Part shown: positions 9,569 to 18,970 of the stretch, piece by piece
Layout of the letters: each line of letters starts with the position of its first letter
Position numbering within the stretch: position 1 is the stretch's first letter
Origin: Nitrospira sp.
GTDB lineage: Bacteria > Nitrospirota > Nitrospiria > Nitrospirales > Nitrospiraceae
Direction of reading: 5' to 3'
Assembly (NCBI GenBank): GCA_005116965.1
Contig: SWDG01000006.1
Location: forward strand, 357,574-391,862
Length of the DNA stretch: 34,289 nt
Made by a program: the position numbers and the translations under genes
Notes under the pieces: generated by a model
Told to the model about the DNA's origin: nothing
Databases searched by the model: none
What the model saw: the letters and a program-made list of their open reading frames with translations, nothing else

Positions 9569-10264
9569 TTACCTCAACTCAAGCGTCAATTGCTCCGGCG
9601 CTCCGGCACGCTTAGTCGATCCGGCTGACCGGGGTGATGGGCCCGAGGCATGAGTCGGGTGGGGCGTGGGATGATCCTTGATCAGTTGAGTCGGTGACAC
9701 GAGTTCCTGCAAGGCGCCGTGACAGGATCCACAGTGATGGCGCTTTGGCTGGATCGTTCTTCGGTGCCGTTGATACAGTCGCCCGCAGTCTTGGCATCGC
9801 CAGGCGAATTTCGCTAAGGCGATGACTTCCTTCTCCAGTGTGTGGTACGTCGTCACGGCGACGGTCCCTGTTCGATTCATCTCCGCCATCTTCCGCAAAA
9901 ACTCCAGGCCATGATCAGGCCGACGTTTCAATACATCGAATTGCCATTGATGAATCATTTCATGAGCCAAGGTGTTGAGCAGCTCCTGCTCCGCGTAGGG
10001 TGTCCGTGCGATGAGCTGTTCAAAGAGCGGGAGAGACAGGCGAATTTCTCGACGACTGTGGGTCAGGGTGAGGGGGGAAAAGGACCTTGGCCCTTCGCGA
10101 CAAGCAAACATACCAACCGAGGAGGTCAGGCGCTGACTCCAGACGATCTCGATCGGCCTAAGTGAACCGGCAAAGTACTGTGTGTTCAAGTGCTGCCAAC
10201 GAGCCTGTAGCCATTCTGAAGAAAGGAGTACCGAAAGGCTTGGGGCGGGCGAGGATGGGCTCAT
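9569..10264 (-). CDS. SprT-like zinc metalloprotease family protein
   Basis: This 231-residue protein has the SprT/Spartan layout. The metalloprotease motif 'LAHEMIHQWQ' (His101, Glu102, His105) is followed by a third ligand candidate, His118, in 'DHGLEFL'. A C-terminal zinc ribbon has Cys157/Cys160 and Cys178/Cys181 ('WRCQDCG', 'HHCGSCHG'). The last 40 residues are rich in proline, serine and threonine and look disordered. Eukaryotic Spartan cleaves DNA-protein crosslinks; most bacterial members are uncharacterised. The ATGA at 10261-10264 overlaps the stop of the upstream gene, so the two are translationally coupled. It converges on the histidine kinase with 32 bp between them. Confidence 0.85.
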   Translation of the reverse strand: MSPSSPAPSLSVLLSSEWLQARWQHLNTQYFAGSLRPIEIVWSQRLTSSVGMFACREGPRSFSPLTLTHSRREIRLSLPLFEQLIARTPYAEQELLNTLAHEMIHQWQFDVLKRRPDHGLEFLRKMAEMNRTGTVAVTTYHTLEKEVIALAKFAWRCQDCGRLYQRHRRTIQPKRHHCGSCHGALQELVSPTQLIKDHPTPHPTHASGPSPRSAGSTKRAGAPEQLTLELR

Positions 10265-11250
10265 CCTAATTCCTCCAGCACGGCCGCCGCGAGCAACGGC
10301 AGCATGATCTCGTGGTGACCGGTCAAGGAATAACCCTGGCCGCCCTTTTGCGTGGGGCGCCGCACGACGTTGGTCTGTGGTCGGTAATGGGAGAGAAAGT
10401 CCATATTCACGGTCGTAATATTGGCGATCGGATGGCCGAGATTTCTCCCTAATGACAGTGTTTTTAGAAAGACCTCTGGCAGAATCACCGCCGAGCCGAC
10501 GTTCAGGTAGACGCCCCCTTCCATCCCAGCGACGACAGCGGTGAGACGCCTGAAGTCCAGGAGCGACGTGGCTCCGATGGCTGCGCCGTCCGCCGAAGGG
10601 TGCATGTGGATAATGTCGGTTCCGACCGCGACATGCACGGTCACCGGAATGCCGAGTGTCGCTCCTGTGGCGAGAATACTGACGGCTCGATTCGGGAATT
10701 GATCGGCTGTATGGTTCATGTAGCGTCCGATGGCTTCACCCAGCCCTTGACCGTCCTTCGCGCCGCGCGTGATGGCGTCATTCAGAATCCGGCCCGTTTC
10801 TTCCGCCATGCCGAACCGGCCGTTGTCGATCTCGGCATCGACTTCTTCGGAGGTATGGCCCATGAGGGCCAATTCGAAGTCATGAATAATTCCTGCCCCG
10901 TTCATGGCTACTGCCGTGATGATACCTCGTTCCATCAAGTCCGTGATGATCGGGGACAGCCCCACCTTGATGACATGGGCGCCGATCCCGAGGATGACGG
11001 GGCGACGCCTTCGATGCGCCTTCACGATGGCCTGGGTGACGGCCCGCAATGTTGTGACCGCGAGGATGTTCGGGAGGCGGGACGAGAAGGTCGAGAACGT
11101 CCCCCCGCGTTTCCACGGCGCGGCCAAGTCTGAAAGCCGAACCTTGCTGTGTCGCTTTTTGAGCGGATAGGTCTTGAGGTCAGACGCATTGATCGGAGGG
11201 ATCAAGGCGGGAGGCCGAGTCGAGGGTGTCCGATCAGGACGCTTTCCCAA
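10261..11250 (-). CDS. Conserved protein resembling the bacterial deoxyhypusine-synthase-like family
   Basis: This 329-residue protein starts with TTG at 11250 (GAGG 8 bases upstream), overlapping the gmhA stop by 17 bp. The core is glycine-rich and Rossmann-like: 'ILGIGAHVIKVGLSPIITDL', 'AVAMNGAGIIHDFELALMG', 'FGMAEETGRILNDAI', 'VHVAVGTDIIHMHPSADGA', 'EGGVYLNVGSAVILPEVFLK' and 'TGHHEIMLPLLAAAV'. I recognise this as a conserved bacterial family, usually left hypothetical or labelled deoxyhypusine-synthase-like. Bacteria lack the eIF5A substrate, so the real reaction is not known to me. Its place between gmhA and sprT is the only functional hint. The family call is moderately sure; the chemistry is not. 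Confidence 0.7.
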   Translation of the reverse strand: MGKRPDRTPSTRPPALIPPINASDLKTYPLKKRHSKVRLSDLAAPWKRGGTFSTFSSRLPNILAVTTLRAVTQAIVKAHRRRRPVILGIGAHVIKVGLSPIITDLMERGIITAVAMNGAGIIHDFELALMGHTSEEVDAEIDNGRFGMAEETGRILNDAITRGAKDGQGLGEAIGRYMNHTADQFPNRAVSILATGATLGIPVTVHVAVGTDIIHMHPSADGAAIGATSLLDFRRLTAVVAGMEGGVYLNVGSAVILPEVFLKTLSLGRNLGHPIANITTVNMDFLSHYRPQTNVVRRPTQKGGQGYSLTGHHEIMLPLLAAAVLEELG

Positions 11251-11812
11251 GGAGATGATCCTCTACCAATTCGCACAAGACGTGGCCGAGCGTGATGTGA
11301 CTTTCCTGAATTCGAGACGTGACCGTAGACGGGACGATGAAAGGATAATCAACCAACGCGGCCAGCTTTCCGCCGTTAGCTCCCGTCCAGGCAATCGTGG
11401 TTAAGCCACCGTCGCGGGCTGCCGCGATACCTTTCAGCACGTTTGGAGAATTTCCGCTGGTGCTGATGCCAATCGCAATGTCCCCTTTTCGGCCATGCGC
11501 GCGCACCTGGCGGGCGAAGAGTTCTTCGTACCCATAGTCATTCGCGATGCAGGTAATGGCGGCAATGTCCGTCGCCAAGGCAATTGCGGGCAACGGCACC
11601 CGGTCGCGCTGGTATCGTCCGACAAACTCCGCTGCAATATGTGCGGCATCGGTCGAGCTCCCGCCGTTACCAAACAGGAGGACTTTGTTCCCGTTCTGGA
11701 ACGCATTCGCGATGAGTGTCGCGACCTGCACGATACGATCGGCATGCTCGTGCGCAAATTGCTGTTTGACTCTGGCACTGTCCGCAAAAGCTGTCAAAAC
11801 AATTGCTTGCAT
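11234..11812 (-). CDS. gmhA: Phosphoheptose isomerase GmhA
   Basis: This 192-residue SIS-domain protein converts sedoheptulose 7-phosphate to D-glycero-D-manno-heptose 7-phosphate, the first step to the LPS heptose precursor. It has the phosphate-binding loop 'LFGNGGSSTDAAHIAAEF' (46-63), the second loop 'ISTSGNSPNV' (116-125), and the C-terminal 'RIQESHITLGHVLCELVE' helix with the catalytic Glu and His. Length is normal for the family. The ATG follows a consensus promoter by only 7 bases, so the message is probably leaderless. It heads the operon gmhA - DHS-like - sprT-like. Confidence 0.96.
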   Translation of the reverse strand: MQAIVLTAFADSARVKQQFAHEHADRIVQVATLIANAFQNGNKVLLFGNGGSSTDAAHIAAEFVGRYQRDRVPLPAIALATDIAAITCIANDYGYEELFARQVRAHGRKGDIAIGISTSGNSPNVLKGIAAARDGGLTTIAWTGANGGKLAALVDYPFIVPSTVTSRIQESHITLGHVLCELVEDHLLGKAS

Positions 11813-11921: not shown

Positions 11922-13178
11922 ATGACACAAGACCAGCCCATCAAGACACTCGTGGTTGCATTGGTCGATGATGCGGCAGCGGCGGTCTATTCAATCAACA
12001 GGCTCAATCCGGAGGCCCTGTGTTTCGTGTTGCCTGAAGGAAGCAAGGCTTTGGTGGAATCGGACATACAGCCGAAGATCCAACAGATGCCGAGGCGGTG
12101 GGATTGGATCGTGATGGCAGACGCGACGGAGTTCCCATCTATCTATCAGACAATTGCACGGTCGTTACCGGATCTCTTGCGGACATGGGAGATACAGCCG
12201 GGCGAGCTAGTCGTGGATCTGAGTGGAGCAACCCCGGCGATGGCGGGTGCGCTCACCTTGGTAGCGCTCCCATGGACTTCTCGGGTGGTTGAGCTGGCTC
12301 GGGCACGCGAAGGGCAGGAGGGTGATCGGATCGAGTTGGGCCCCAAGACGCTCATCTGGACTCAGAGCAATCCATGGGACGAGCAAGCGACCGTGTCACG
12401 TCGGGAAGGGTGCGAGTTGTTTAACCGGGGTCTCTTTCACTCCGCCGCCAAGCTCTTCCATGGCGTAGAACTGCGAGTGAGTGGCGGGCACAAGCCACTC
12501 TATCGCGCCTTCACCGATTTGGCCGAGGGCTATGAGTTCTGGGAACGGTTTCAGTACCGGCAAGCCTGGGACAAGTTGAGGACTGCGACGAAAGCTCTGG
12601 AGATGGCTTCGCTGTGGGGCGGACCGACCGGATTGAAAGCGATCCTGCCTCATCTGAAGGCCAACGCGAGTTTCCTTGAGAAGCTGGTGCTGGACCCTGC
12701 CGAGGTCAAAGAATACCTCGCGCTGGACCTATTGGCGTATGTGGGAAGGCATCTCCATGTTGGCCATGACCCCGAAGGGGCGATGACAGCGCTGGTTCGT
12801 GCGCTGGAGGCGTTCGCGCAAGTCCGGCTGTATAAGTCGTACAAGATCAAGAGTTGGGATGTGTCGCCGGGACAGCTTCCGCAAGCGCTTCAAGAGACCT
12901 GCCGCACGTGTTATCTCGAAGACATTGACGGCAAATACAAGCTGCCGCTTCAAGCGCAGTTTCGTGTGTTGGCCGGACTGGGCGATCAACTGGGCCAAGC
13001 CTTTCTCAAGGAATGGCAGAAGATGAAACCGTTGCTGGACGCCGCGAACCATGCGGTGTTGGGACACGGCTTCGAGCCGATCAAGGCTGAGCGAGTGCAG
13101 CAGTTGTACGATGTCGTGCTTCGATTGACGGGTGTTGCTGAATCATCACTGCCGAAGTTTCCTGTCTTGAACCTCTAA
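11922..13178 (+). CDS. CARF-domain CRISPR-associated protein, TIGR02710/Csm6-like
   Basis: The 418-residue protein begins with a Rossmann-like CARF region. It has strand 'IKTLVVALVDD', then 'WDWIVMADATE', and the ligand loop 'VVDLSGATPAMAGALTLVAL' (98-115), equivalent to the 'DxTgGTKxM' of CARF sensors that bind cyclic oligoadenylates. A helical region with 'LFNRGLFHSAAKLF' follows, and a C-terminal HEPN-like part ends in 'DAANHAVLGHGFEP' (373-386). Active members of the family have an R-N-x-x-x-x-x-H-G type motif there; here the arginine position is Ala375 while Asn376 and His382 remain. Such proteins normally act as accessory RNases of type III CRISPR systems, but no cas gene or array is in this window. 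An orphan sensor or an inactivated RNase are both possible. Confidence 0.8.
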   Translation: MTQDQPIKTLVVALVDDAAAAVYSINRLNPEALCFVLPEGSKALVESDIQPKIQQMPRRWDWIVMADATEFPSIYQTIARSLPDLLRTWEIQPGELVVDLSGATPAMAGALTLVALPWTSRVVELARAREGQEGDRIELGPKTLIWTQSNPWDEQATVSRREGCELFNRGLFHSAAKLFHGVELRVSGGHKPLYRAFTDLAEGYEFWERFQYRQAWDKLRTATKALEMASLWGGPTGLKAILPHLKANASFLEKLVLDPAEVKEYLALDLLAYVGRHLHVGHDPEGAMTALVRALEAFAQVRLYKSYKIKSWDVSPGQLPQALQETCRTCYLEDIDGKYKLPLQAQFRVLAGLGDQLGQAFLKEWQKMKPLLDAANHAVLGHGFEPIKAERVQQLYDVVLRLTGVAESSLPKFPVLNL

Positions 13179-13267: not shown

Positions 13268-13822
13268 TTAGTCTTTACCAACCCAACAAGGCAGTGGTTC
13301 TTCGCTATTGGCTGCAAAGTCACGCGCTTCGTCGTCCCGCTCACGAATACACTCCCGAACAAGTGCCACAGCCTCTGCATCGGTCATTACTGAGATTTCA
13401 AGCTGCGCTAGTTCTTCACTCTTACGGAGGATACCTCTATCCGCGGTGATCAAGGGATAAGGGCGATGCTGCCATGCGGCAAGGACAATTTCCACATCGT
13501 TTCCTTCATTTTGTGAGTGGCAGCCATCAGGGAAAAGAATCTCAGAAATCCGAGGACGCATTTCTCTTGCAACATGGTTATGAGTATAGCTGATGGTGAA
13601 AACTGTGCTCGAAGCTTTCCGAGAGCGCTCGGCATTATGTCCCTCTTTTGCCTCACCATGAGCAACGTCGGGCATAAGGAGTCCAATTACCCCATCCTTA
13701 CGCCACTGGTCTAGCTGGTTCATATAGGGTAACGCGCGGCGTGCGTTGATACGGTTCGTATCGATCAGGAAATATAAGTCCGTTTCACGGCTTGGCATGT
13801 GAGGATTCAATTCTCGTCCCAT
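13268..13822 (-). CDS. PIN-domain-like protein (putative nuclease)
   Basis: This 184-residue protein has a PIN-like arrangement of acidic residues. 'LYFLIDTNRINARRAL' near the N-terminus carries the first Asp. 'DVAHGEAKEGH' comes next, then 'GNDVEIVLAAWQHRPYPLITADRGILR' in two parts supplies the central Asp and the 'TADRG' motif typical of PIN RNases. GGAGAG 6 bases before the ATG supports this start. No intact antitoxin gene is adjacent. Directly upstream is only a short open stretch ending 'IWKACLRRIGE', whose stop touches the start region. The strand is opposite to the CARF gene, with which it converges. It is a lone PIN protein, or a toxin whose partner has decayed. Confidence 0.6.
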   Translation of the reverse strand: MGRELNPHMPSRETDLYFLIDTNRINARRALPYMNQLDQWRKDGVIGLLMPDVAHGEAKEGHNAERSRKASSTVFTISYTHNHVAREMRPRISEILFPDGCHSQNEGNDVEIVLAAWQHRPYPLITADRGILRKSEELAQLEISVMTDAEAVALVRECIRERDDEARDFAANSEEPLPCWVGKD

Positions 13823-14125
13823 TTTACTCTCCGATCCTTCGCAAACACGCCTTCCAGATTTTAGACTTGTCTAGGGATCAAGCTGATTAGCTGGTAGTGA
13901 GTTGGTTTGATCTTTGCTCACATAAGAAACCAACTACCCAACCCGAGATTAGGTTGAATGACCCTGACCTTCCTCAGTGAAGGGCAAATTGTCGTGATGG
14001 CAATGGAGAAGGGAGTAGATGCAGGAAAGAGTCAATCAAGCCTGAAGTTGCCTCTATATAATTCTGAGAGAGAAGCATGGCGGAAGCCGATGACTTGTTC
14101 TTGGTCTTGAGCACAGGCAACCTCA
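13823..14125. other. Gene-poor interval between Sel1 and PIN genes
   Basis: No convincing gene. On the minus strand 13825-13875 can encode the tail '...SKIWKACLRRIGE' before a TAA, possibly the end of a lost gene. An imperfect hairpin has arms AGTTGGTTT (13900-13908) and AAACCAACT (13927-13935) with no U-tract. A 48-codon plus-strand frame from 13958 has no recognisable features. Confidence 0.4.
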
Positions 14126-15049
14126 TCATCTACCCGTTTTCAACTTTGCGTAATTGTCACAGCCCAACTGGTTTTCGAGGTCGCACGCCTTTCCATAATA
14201 CTTGAGTGCTTCAGTGTCGTCCTGTCGGACACCTTTTCCTAGGTGATAGGCTAGCCCGAGAGATGCACAGCCTATTGCATTCTCGCCGTCACAGGCTTTC
14301 CTAAACAAGGCTACGGCTTGGAAGGTATCCTGTGTGACCCCGATCCCGTCGAAATACCTCAAGCCGAGATTGGAGCAACCTAGCCACTCCTTGCCGTCAC
14401 AGGCTTTCCTGAATAGGGCGATGGCTTGCCCGGCGTCTTGTGGAACCTCAGTACCCGTCACATACATCGCGCCGAGAGTGGTGCAGCTCCGCATAAATCC
14501 CCCCTCACAGGCTTTTCGATAGAATGCGGCGGCTTGCCCGGCGTCTTGTAGGACATCAATACCCTGCTGATACATCACGCCGAGACCCCAGCAACCCAAC
14601 GCCTCCCCGCCGTCACAAGCTTGCCCATACAACTTGAGAGCCTGACCGTTGTCTTGTGGGACCATTGTGCCCCGGCTATACACTGCGGCGAGATTGTAGC
14701 AACCTCGTGGCTCTCCACCATCACAGGCTTTTCGGTAGAATGTTATGGCTTGAAGGGTGTCTTGTCGGACCCCAGTACCCTCCTCATACATCACGCCAAG
14801 GTTGTAGCAGCCTTGCGCAAATCTGCCATCACAAGCTTTCCTGTAGAAGAGCGCGGCTTGCCCGGTGTCCTGTTTGACGTTGGTCCCCTTAGCATACATC
14901 CATCCAAGGGTTCCACATGACGGTGCATCCCCTTCCTCACACGCTGCTCTAAACTGTTGCGGGTTGTCGGCTGCTTCAGAAGGGTTCATCCCTGCTGAGA
15001 CCAGCACAGCGACGACCACGAGAGCATGAAGAAGCGAGTGAAGATTCAT
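14126..15049 (-). CDS. Secreted Sel1-like (Hcp-type) repeat protein
   Basis: The frame opens at 15223, but the ATG at 15049 has GGAG 8 bases upstream and gives a 307-residue protein with a clean signal peptide ending near 'NPSEAA'. The rest is seven tandem 36-residue Sel1-like units of the form 'GCxxLGxMYxxGxGVxQDxxQAxxFYRKACDGG', plus a capping half-unit. Each junction carries a C-x7-C pair (for example 'CDGRFAQGC', 'CDGGEPRGC', 'CDLENQLGC'), eight pairs in all. This is the disulphide-stabilised pattern of Helicobacter Hcp proteins and fits a periplasmic or secreted protein. Sel1 repeats bind other proteins; the partner is unknown. Both neighbours are unrelated and it appears monocistronic. 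Confidence 0.85.
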   Translation of the reverse strand: MNLHSLLHALVVVAVLVSAGMNPSEAADNPQQFRAACEEGDAPSCGTLGWMYAKGTNVKQDTGQAALFYRKACDGRFAQGCYNLGVMYEEGTGVRQDTLQAITFYRKACDGGEPRGCYNLAAVYSRGTMVPQDNGQALKLYGQACDGGEALGCWGLGVMYQQGIDVLQDAGQAAAFYRKACEGGFMRSCTTLGAMYVTGTEVPQDAGQAIALFRKACDGKEWLGCSNLGLRYFDGIGVTQDTFQAVALFRKACDGENAIGCASLGLAYHLGKGVRQDDTEALKYYGKACDLENQLGCDNYAKLKTGR

Positions 15050-15189
15050 GGAGGGATCTCCAATGAAGAAGGAAGAGAGGCGATAGAGAGATATCTTGTC
15101 AATTGCCGGATACAGGGTCTCTCTGGAACGATCAGTTGGACCGTCTTCCCCTCTGCGATCGGATAGTATCTGCAACCGGCATCCGCTCG

Positions 15190-15447
15190 CTATTTGTTGC
15201 GACCGAGTTCTCTCGTGAGCCACTCTAATTCATGCAAACGATTTGGTTTGGGACCGTCCCCTGATAAGTCGTGGTCACGAAGCTGCTCATAACTGATAAA
15301 GCGCGGTGTTCCACTCTTATATTCTGAAGTTGACACTTGATCTGGCTTCCTTGGTTCAATAAATGCCTTTCGTTTATTGTCCCATTCCCATCCTGCCTCG
15401 TCGAATAGTTGCAGAGCTTGGGGGTCTATGTCATTGGGGATAGCCAT
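15190..15447 (-). CDS. Small hypothetical protein (85 residues)
   Basis: The ATG at 15447 has AGGAG 6 bases upstream, better than the earlier in-frame start at 15483. The product is soluble, with no signal peptide or membrane segment, rich in charged residues and prolines ('AIPNDIDPQALQLFDEAG', 'WEWDNKRKAFIEPRKP', 'LHELEWLTRELGRNK'). I recognise no family. It lies 140 bp upstream of the Sel1 gene on the same strand and just downstream of a degenerate coding remnant. Confidence 0.6.
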   Translation of the reverse strand: MAIPNDIDPQALQLFDEAGWEWDNKRKAFIEPRKPDQVSTSEYKSGTPRFISYEQLRDHDLSGDGPKPNRLHELEWLTRELGRNK

Positions 15448-15509
15448 TTTCACTCCTAATTTGACGCGCAGAAAGCCTGGCAATCATCGTGGGAACTTTA
15501 CCATTTAAT

Positions 15510-15746: not shown

Positions 15747-15770
15747 CATCGGGTATGAAAGAACCCGATG
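15747..15770 (+). promoter_or_regulatory. Hairpin with the ybgC start codon in its loop
   Basis: CATCGGGT (15747-15754) and ACCCGATG (15763-15770) pair perfectly over 8 bp. The loop ATGAAAGA begins with the ybgC start codon. No Shine-Dalgarno is visible upstream. The structure could limit or present the start codon; it could also mean that a later start is the real one. Confidence 0.5.
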
Positions 15771-16231
15771 GATCATTCCAAAGTCACTTTAAATCACAGC
15801 CCTGTCCAGGCAACGCATTGGAAATAAAGATCTACTACGAAGATACCGACTGCGGCGGGGTCGTATACTACGCCAACTATCTCAAATATTTTGAGCGGGC
15901 GCGGACCCACTATCTTGAAGATCGCGGACTATCGGTGGCGGGGCTTATGGCCCAAGGAACGGTGTTTGTCGTCGTGCATGCGGAGGTGCATTATCGGTCG
16001 CCTGCCCGCTATGGCGAAACGTTGGTGATCGAGACGGTCGTTCCCGAGATGACGGCTGCGTCGATTACTTTTGCCCACGTGGTCAAGGACAAAGTCAGTG
16101 GGCGTGTCGTGGCCGAAGGGTCGGCCAGACTGGCGGCGACGGACGGCAACGGCAAGGTGAAGCGCCTGGACAAGGCAACCGTCGCTGCGATACAGTCGGA
16201 GTCGCATTCTGCGGAGAGACGTCATCCGTAA
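15755..16231 (+). CDS. ybgC: YbgC-family acyl-CoA thioesterase (hotdog fold)
   Basis: This 158-residue protein has the hotdog thioesterase signature 'YYEDTDCGGVVYYANYLKYF' (27-46), where the Asp of 'EDTD' is the catalytic residue. The fold continues with 'VVVHAEVHYRSPARYGETL' and 'GRVVAEGSARLAATD'. YbgC proteins hydrolyse acyl-CoA or acyl-ACP and often sit with tol-pal genes in envelope maintenance; no tol-pal genes are visible here. The N-terminal 22 residues precede the usual family start, so a downstream TTG ('ALEIKIYYED', near 15815) is an alternative start if the hairpin-borne ATG is not used. Confidence 0.9.
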   Translation: MKEPDGSFQSHFKSQPCPGNALEIKIYYEDTDCGGVVYYANYLKYFERARTHYLEDRGLSVAGLMAQGTVFVVVHAEVHYRSPARYGETLVIETVVPEMTAASITFAHVVKDKVSGRVVAEGSARLAATDGNGKVKRLDKATVAAIQSESHSAERRHP

Positions 16232-17242: not shown

Positions 17243-18970
17243 TCAACGATGGGTCACTGTTTGAGTGGAGAAGCCCTGGAGTTTCTTACCGACCTGCGCC
17301 TTCGTGTCACCCACAGTGCCACCTGACTCTGACCACTGCGTAATCACGATTTCTATTCGTCGGTTCTTACTCCGGTTTTTTTCCGTGTCATTGGCCGCGA
17401 TCGGTTTGCTATCGGCGTACCCCATGGCTTTGACTCGGTCAGCCTCAAGCCCTCCGTTGATCAATATTTGAATGGCATGTTCGGCCCTGGTCCGGGAGAG
17501 TTCGATATTATCTCGAAAGCCCTTCCGAGGGTCGATCCGGAGCGGCGCGTTGTCGGTATGGCCGGCAACCTCAATGTTCTGGTAGCGAAATCCGTGCAGG
17601 ACGGCTCCGATCCGCTCGAGCAACGAAGTGCCTCCGAGGGTAACCGCAGCATCACCGGTGGGGAACAATTCGGTGGTTGCAAACGCGAGGGTCAATTTAT
17701 TGCCTCGCTGCCTCAACGTCGCACTGCCCTTCTTGAGTTCGGGCTGTAAGAGGCTCGCGAGACTCTCGCTCATCTTCCCGAGGTCGCTACTTGATAAGGA
17801 TTCTGTGTCATCTGCAACCGCAGGCGTAGATGGCAGCAGGTTCGTCACGGATAGGTTTTGATCGAGCGATTGCAGCGGAATCGTGCTTTTGTCGGCACCG
17901 CTGTCCTCTTGAGCAGGAGCTGGCTCGGCTGGTTTGGACGCATTGCGTTCGAGGTCCGCCAGCAATTGTTTCGTGCGTGCGAGTTCCGTGTCTCTTGCCA
18001 TGAGTTGAGGATTGAGATCCGCCAGCTTTTGCGTGACCTGTTTGAGGTCGTCCTTGAGCTGCGCGAGTTCTTGCTCTTTCCGCGCTGTCTGCTGTTCAAC
18101 TTCGGTCGCACGGCGTTTGGTCTGGGCCAGTTCCTGTTCTTTTCCCGCCATCTGTAGTTCGACTTCAGTTAGGCGGCGCTTGGCCTGCGCCAGATCTTGC
18201 TCTTTCCCCGATGCCGTCAGTTGTTCTGTTTCGGCTGGGCGGCGTCTGGCCTGCGCCAGGTCCTGCTCTTTCCGCGCTGTCTGTTGTTCGGCTTCGGTGA
18301 CGCGACGTTTCGCTTGCGCCAGTTCTTGCTCCTTCCCTGCCATCTGTTGTTCGGCTTCGGCAATTCGGCGTTTAGTCTGCGTCAGTTCCTGTTCTTTCCC
18401 TGCTATCTGTTGTTCGGCGTCGGCTGCACGGCGTTTGGTCTGTGCCAGTTCCTGTTCTTTCCCCGCCGTCTGTTGTTCAAGTTCGGCGACACGACGTTTC
18501 GCCTGCGCCAGTTCCTGCTCTTTCTTTGCGGTCTGTTGTTCGGCGTCGGCTGCGCGGCGTTTGGCCTGCGTCAATTCTTGCCCTTTCCCCGTGGTCAGCT
18601 GTTGTTCAACTTCGGCGACGCGACGTTTGGCCTGGGTGAGATCCTCAGCTTGTGACGCAAGATCCTCTCGAAGCTTCTTGGAATTCTCGTAGGCGTCGGA
18701 TCGCAGGGCTGTGATCTCACTATCTTTGGCATGGAGTTGGATAACCAACTCACCGATCCGCCGTTTTGCATTCTCCAGATTGCCGGCAGCGAGTTGTCGC
18801 TCGAGCTCGTCGATTTTTTGCTTGGCTTGCTGGAGATGGGTTCTCGTTACGCTCAATTCGTCTTGTGGCGACTGGCCGTCTGCATCTCTGGCGGCCATAG
18901 AAACCGGCACAACTCCGCATAACATGGTGAGGAGTGTAAGCGTGAAGGCGGATAAGTTTTTGATGATCAT
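17243..18970 (-). CDS. OmpA-C/MotB-like peptidoglycan-binding protein with long coiled coil
   Basis: The 575-residue protein begins with a signal peptide (to about residue 27, 'VVPVSMAA'). A continuous coiled coil spans about 36-345 and includes nine tandem 21-residue units of the form 'GKEQELAQTKRRAADAEQQ'. A low-complexity linker follows, then a C-terminal OmpA/MotB domain with 'EVAGHTDNAPL', 'NIELSRTRAEHAIQIL' and 'NRSKNRRIEIVI', the residues that bind diaminopimelate in peptidoglycan. There is no beta-barrel or transmembrane anchor, so it is probably a periplasmic strut bound to the wall through its C-terminus. Unit 7 is 22 residues and carries a helix-unfriendly proline, which would break the heptad phase. 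It ends against a 7-bp hairpin (17223-17243). Confidence 0.88.
   Translation of the reverse strand: MIIKNLSAFTLTLLTMLCGVVPVSMAARDADGQSPQDELSVTRTHLQQAKQKIDELERQLAAGNLENAKRRIGELVIQLHAKDSEITALRSDAYENSKKLREDLASQAEDLTQAKRRVAEVEQQLTTGKGQELTQAKRRAADAEQQTAKKEQELAQAKRRVAELEQQTAGKEQELAQTKRRAADAEQQIAGKEQELTQTKRRIAEAEQQMAGKEQELAQAKRRVTEAEQQTARKEQDLAQARRRPAETEQLTASGKEQDLAQAKRRLTEVELQMAGKEQELAQTKRRATEVEQQTARKEQELAQLKDDLKQVTQKLADLNPQLMARDTELARTKQLLADLERNASKPAEPAPAQEDSGADKSTIPLQSLDQNLSVTNLLPSTPAVADDTESLSSSDLGKMSESLASLLQPELKKGSATLRQRGNKLTLAFATTELFPTGDAAVTLGGTSLLERIGAVLHGFRYQNIEVAGHTDNAPLRIDPRKGFRDNIELSRTRAEHAIQILINGGLEADRVKAMGYADSKPIAANDTEKNRSKNRRIEIVITQWSESGGTVGDTKAQVGKKLQGFSTQTVTHR
18083..18652 (-). repeat. 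Nine in-frame 63-bp tandem repeats (21-residue coiled-coil units)
   Basis: Residues 107-296 of the OmpA-C protein consist of nine units beginning G/R/K-K-E-Q-E/D-L, each three heptads long (unit 7 has one extra residue). At DNA level the units are similar but not identical, with recurrent blocks such as cgtttggcctg and cagttcctg, so this is a coding minisatellite able to gain or lose copies. Confidence 0.85.

Follow-up and report, generated by a model that had tools for sequence, protein, structure and literature searches.

The closest described protein is Csm6 of Thermus thermophilus (TtCsm6; TTHB152; PDB 5fsh, 8jbb, 8jbc, and 8jh1), a cA4-activated RNase that is also a ring nuclease. Its RNase activity is abolished by each of the substitutions R415A, N416A, and H422A, and K137A wholly removes cA4 binding and abolishes RNase activity (PMC10897365). 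Within Nitrospirota, type III loci (L077-L088) encode TIGR02710/PF09670 proteins of TIGR02710-type architecture that keep the DxTxGTK and RN-x5-HG motifs, several of them within ~5–20 kb of Cas10. Cyclic-oligoadenylate (cOA) immunity is read from the presence of CARF-HEPN proteins, and automatic annotation labels the Nitrospirales gene described below CRISPR-associated in genomes without CRISPR. HEPN-T Parep1/8 and similar families have lost the catalytic Arg and kept the His, and it has been suggested that HEPN domains without activity bind nucleic acids (PMC3710099).

The window analyzed here is 34,289 nucleotides of a Nitrospira sp. genome (GCA_005116965.1, contig SWDG01000006.1, positions 357,574 to 391,862). 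It encodes a 418-aa CARF-6H-HEPN protein (11922–13178, forward strand, ATG at 11922) that belongs to an order-wide orthologue family. The protein resembles TtCsm6 in its domain order, CARF-6H(HTH)-HEPN, in its overall fold, and in the Glu that partners the catalytic Arg (E332, retained as E296 by alignment). Unlike TtCsm6, it has Ala in place of R415, Pro in place of K137, an altered motif I, and a variable position at N416, and most Nitrospirales carriers lack a type III system. The proteins of the Nitrospirota type III loci are homologous to it over their full length at 23–29% identity and, unlike the Nitrospirales family, keep both motifs. The HEPN-T Parep1/8-type proteins share the pattern of lost Arg and kept His, but belong to other HEPN families and have no CARF domain. 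No description of the Nitrospirales family was found in a literature search that excluded the 2020 CARF superfamily classification, which may list the cluster.

Results

Descent and fold place the protein in the Csm6/TIGR02710 group. Its TIGR02710 score is 113.2 bits (curated cut-off 83.9), and it reaches 67 bits against PF09670 (Csm6 HEPN; cut-off 27; residues 265–403), and 50 bits against PF22205 (Csm6 6H; cut-off 27.6; residues 159–251). PADLOC model PDLC01812 (CARF1--CARF_HEPN) covers all 418 positions at 819.5 bits and represents the same family, catalogued as a candidate defence protein; its model entry is silent on the lost motifs described below. The 6H domain spans residues 149–258 (12366–12695, forward; PF22205) and the HEPN domain residues 259–403 (12696–13130, forward; PF09670). 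A phmmer search of the PDB with the single sequence returned chance matches only, and a profile search was required to reach TtCsm6. An AlphaFold2 model (mean pLDDT 84.9, pTM 0.66) has the CARF-6H-HEPN fold and lies nearest TtCsm6, its best PDB match (Z 21.9, 378 residues aligned, rmsd 6.9, 22% identity); Foldseek also led to TtCsm6 (E 1e-13).

The position of the HEPN R-x4-6-H motif reads A375-N-H-A-V-L-G-H-G383 (13044–13070, forward). Codon 375, starting at 13044, encodes Ala, and Asn376 and His382 are present. In a profile alignment to TtCsm6, with residue numbers counted off the printed alignment, residue 375 corresponds to the catalytic R415, N376 to N416, H382 to H422, and P105 to K137. 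Orthologues were drawn from named Nitrospira and Nitrospirales genomes and from further genomes of the phylum. Among 110 distinct intact Nitrospirales orthologues, residue 375 is Ala in 105, Ser in 2, Val in 2, and Thr in 1, and none has the Arg of the catalytic motif. A sequence-only reading of this DNA had reported Ala at the HEPN Arg position with the Asn and His remaining; this was exact, and the change is fixed across the clade rather than a chance or private mutation. An apparent Arg at this position in orthologue L101 came from an antisense frame; read correctly, the gene encodes DAANQAVLGHG and GATP. Every intact-motif relative with coverage of the column has Arg there (17 sequences, or 15 in a reduced set), a small comparison group with few members at matched divergence. 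HEPN RNase activity would have been lost in the clade, a conclusion that is well supported because the Arg is absent clade-wide and R415A kills the RNase of TtCsm6.

Another suggestion of the sequence-only reading was that the family has an active site of another kind. Such a protein would be an active nuclease with a rebuilt site, in which K369, D373, H382, K388, and R391 stand in for the Arg. Several observations are consistent with this. K369, D373, and R391 are near-invariant in the clade, G381 is conserved as well, and H382 is kept in 105 of the 110 orthologues. The motif region is also among the most constrained parts of the protein, with dN/dS of ~0.02–0.08 for residues 360–395 in four of five pairs and 0 in the fifth. 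On the other hand, K369 and R391 are also present in Arg-bearing relatives and are not new substitutes. Five members of f2, a second family within Nitrospirales, have Q, Y, or N in place of H382, and N376 is kept in only 75/110, with H, S, D, and others elsewhere. Several f2 members combine D at 376 with Q, Y, or N at 382. Gained basic positions were screened as those basic in ≥90% of the clade and <30% of relatives. The screen yielded positions 27, 59, 121, 180, 218, 310, and 328, and found no compensating Arg or Lys gained by the clade in the HEPN motif region; K310 and R328, in the HEPN half, lie outside the motif by sequence. A rebuilt nuclease is improbable.

A second loss, missed by the sequence-only reading, was found in the CARF domain. 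The motif I position, residues 15–17 (11964–11972, forward), reads V-D-D, where intact relatives have mostly G-G-S or G-G-T; G15 occurs in just 3 of the 110 orthologues. The motif II position, residues 99–106 (12216–12239, forward), reads DLSGATPA, where relatives have DYTGGTK, and P105 falls at the position of TtCsm6 K137. Residue 105 is Pro in 86 orthologues, Ala in 16, and Lys in none, and it is Lys in all intact-motif relatives covering the site (again 17, or 15 in the reduced set). Neither CARF signature motif survives: GGTK has become GATP, and G-[GT]-[ST] is missing from motif I. The lysine and motif I needed for cOA binding by Csm6 are lacking, as are the ring nuclease motifs (I, G-[ST]-[ST]; II, T-x-G-x-K), with positions 15–17 and 103/105 changed clade-wide. 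Because the lysine equivalent to K137 is absent in all 110, the CARF domain probably no longer binds a ligand, or at any rate not the known one, cA4. The proposal that the protein is a sensor that has lost RNase activity and kept ligand binding holds for its first half, given 0/110 Arg and the effect of R415A. Its second half fares poorly: both CARF motifs are gone, K137A loses cA4 binding, most hosts have no Cas10, and the CARF domain is the least conserved.

The altered CARF pocket could instead bind another nucleotide or a small molecule and signal through a partner, with no RNA cleavage. The CARF fold is kept, the model matching the CARF domains of Can2, Card1, and Cam1 at Z ~13–15, and D99 and T104 are retained. 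The domain also carries clade-specific invariants, namely R27, C34, E46, and W60-D61-W62. Against a new-ligand sensor, no cyclase partner gene adjoins, and conservation within the clade is lowest in CARF, opposite to what the intact family shows. Binding of a new ligand in the altered cleft is unlikely; it is the strongest rival explanation, and a rebuilt nuclease site is less likely still.

Comparison of the window gene with each of twelve orthologues gives dN/dS values of 0.04–0.11, although dS is near saturation in the more distant pairs and their values are rough. With the five closest orthologues, dN/dS is ~0.06–0.07 for HEPN vs 0.10–0.18 for CARF, and is lowest in the HEPN half (~0.06 for the HEPN domain). 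Among pairs at 35–50% overall identity, domain identity in the Nitrospirales clade is 0.39 for CARF, 0.55 for 6H, and 0.53 for HEPN (683 pairs), and in the intact group 0.41, 0.32, and 0.40 (15 pairs); the pairs are not independent of one another. Constraint has moved from the CARF sensor, which in the intact group matches or exceeds 6H in conservation, toward 6H and HEPN. In the clade, CARF ranks lowest of the three domains and 6H is among the most conserved parts. A decaying remnant, or pseudogene in progress, is suggested by a few broken copies with frameshifts or stops (L019 near 9096, L042, G009, G024, and G095), some of which may be MAG assembly errors. The dN/dS of 0.04–0.11 across most of the order shows no relaxed selection, however; full-length frames occur in nearly all genomes, and 85 positions are ≥97% conserved across the 110 sequences. 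For the clade overall, decay is refuted, and it is scarcely credible as an explanation of the gene.

Of 98 Nitrospirales genomes listed in the phylum sample, 95 have an orthologue; the gene is rare outside the order. In the genus sample, 74/79 genomes have a match and 72/79 have the orthologue proper; G047 and G049 match solely through a 27% identical paralogue and were excluded from the latter count. Among the better genus genomes, 48/49 match. G293 and G324 have gmhA without the CARF-HEPN gene. No relatives were found in viral contigs.

The gene occupies a conserved chromosomal place. A divergent gmhA-like gene for a SIS-domain protein (11234–11812, reverse; PF13580), conserved order-wide, lies upstream in 47/50 testable loci, and a gene for a deoxyhypusine-synthase-like protein (10261–11250, reverse; weak PF01916) is a neighbour in the same proportion, 47/50. 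A 4HBT/YbgC-type thioesterase gene (15755–16231, forward; PF13279) is usually directly downstream; in 43/47 testable loci it shares the strand of the CARF-HEPN gene and is no more than 4 kb away, often 0–120 bases. In the window, an insert of ~2.5 kb parts the CARF-HEPN gene from the thioesterase gene. The insert holds three reverse-strand genes (13268–15483): a 184-aa PIN-like ORF, a gene with Sel1 repeats, and an ORF of 97 aa. The 184-aa ORF has no Pfam match and a weak similarity to PADLOC PDC-M11A. The ~2.5-kb block was inserted in the lineage of the window. In many relatives, a pair of NfeD and band-7 (stomatin-like) genes lies between gmhA and the CARF gene (for example L005 6457–7850, reverse); this pair is absent from the window. 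This synteny is evidence of shared descent, not of a common task with the neighbours.

In a maximum-likelihood tree, the Nitrospirales orthologues form one clade (100/100) on a long stem of 1.01 changes per column. The tree contains the misread L101 row as a very long branch outside this clade, and that row was ignored. The sister group (99/99) is f19 (L057-L062), a small family of another Nitrospirota lineage that keeps all motifs. It is ~34–40% identical to the Nitrospirales family. Unlike that family, f19 retains the CARF motifs and DSRN-x5-AHG, and most of its carriers, four of five, have a clear Cas10. The f19 genes at L057 4977–6227 and L058 6567–7817 are flanked by NAD kinase and rho and are not part of a cas locus, a housekeeping context like that of the Nitrospirales gene. 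The neighbours in L057 and L058 are NAD kinase, rho, prfA, and murA, although these genomes have Cas10. The relationship between f19 and the Nitrospirales family may reflect vertical descent or transfer.

The sequence-only reading had noted that the window contains no CRISPR array, and this was borne out. The only short-spaced repeats found in the window are in-frame coding repeats in OmpA-domain and Sel1 genes; ten copies of a 63–66 base in-frame repeat lie at 18021–18659, in the gene of an OmpA-domain protein with long coiled-coil-like repeats. That reading had also proposed a search of the rest of the genome for type III cas10, and none was found: the 99.2% complete genome has no match to Cas10, Cas1, or RAMP, and no second PF09670 gene. 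The NCBIfam TIGR02710 "equivalog" model labels the protein CRISPR-associated in this genome all the same.

A clear Cas10, defined as 65 bits or more, is present in 6/98 Nitrospirales genomes (G045, G192, G299, G238, G257, and G314), and 89 of the 95 carriers in the phylum sample have none. The Nitrospirales family thus lacks the type III association of Csm6 RNases. Weak PF22335 matches of 25–30 bits (G052, G064, G210, G250, and G268) are probably GGDEF-type domains and were not counted as Cas10. Several Cas10-bearing genomes also hold a separate TIGR02710-type paralogue with intact motifs, located within ~5–20 kb of Cas10 in G299, G192, and G049. In G045 and G046 (loci L077 and L080), the altered orthologue, an intact CARF-HEPN paralogue, and Cas10 occur together. 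The intact immune form and the altered form can coexist in one genome.

These genomes bear on whether the protein serves type III immunity in trans, as a regulator, a cOA sponge, or a dominant-negative partner of an intact Csm6. The CRISPR-associated name of TIGR02710 and the few carriers with both Cas10 and an intact paralogue fit such a role. Yet the great majority of carriers have no clear Cas10, the genome studied here has no Cas10 match, and the cOA-binding Lys is missing in 110/110. The role is largely refuted by distribution and is very improbable.

Discussion

The gene is probably a domesticated Csm6-type CARF-HEPN protein that is doubly inactive. The lack of Cas10 in most carriers, the losses and their fixation, purifying selection, synteny, and the coexisting intact CRISPR-linked paralogues support this reading. 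On the branch to Nitrospirales, the cOA-binding residues of CARF motifs I and II and the HEPN catalytic Arg would have been lost, and strong selection would afterwards have retained the gene at one place as a core, CRISPR-independent gene. The product would be a pseudo-nuclease, with no cOA binding of the known kind and no RNA cleavage through HEPN-type chemistry. A better name is Csm6-derived pseudo-nuclease, not Csm6, since the protein lacks the catalytic Arg, the cOA-binding Lys, and the association with Cas10. Two observations count against domestication with both activities lost. H382 and N376 are kept in 105/110 and 75/110 orthologues, more than full active-site loss predicts. The CARF fold and the clade-specific invariants are also kept, so that another ligand is possible.

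The domesticated protein may act through its 6H-HEPN half, most probably as a homodimer like that of Csm6, and bind RNA or a partner protein. RNA binding is a tentative suggestion for this function, and protein scaffolding an equally tentative one. The thioesterase encoded downstream is a candidate partner on synteny alone. A fuller history has somewhat less than even odds: a single exaptation close to the base of Nitrospirales would have made a type III effector into a housekeeping protein, essential or nearly so, that took on a new ligand or partner and shed both chemistries.

The family would clearly exemplify the change of a CRISPR effector into a core protein of the cell, within an ecologically important group that includes nitrifiers. 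It would caution against inferring function from a family name, and it offers a natural experiment on the capabilities of a Csm6 scaffold stripped of its chemistry.
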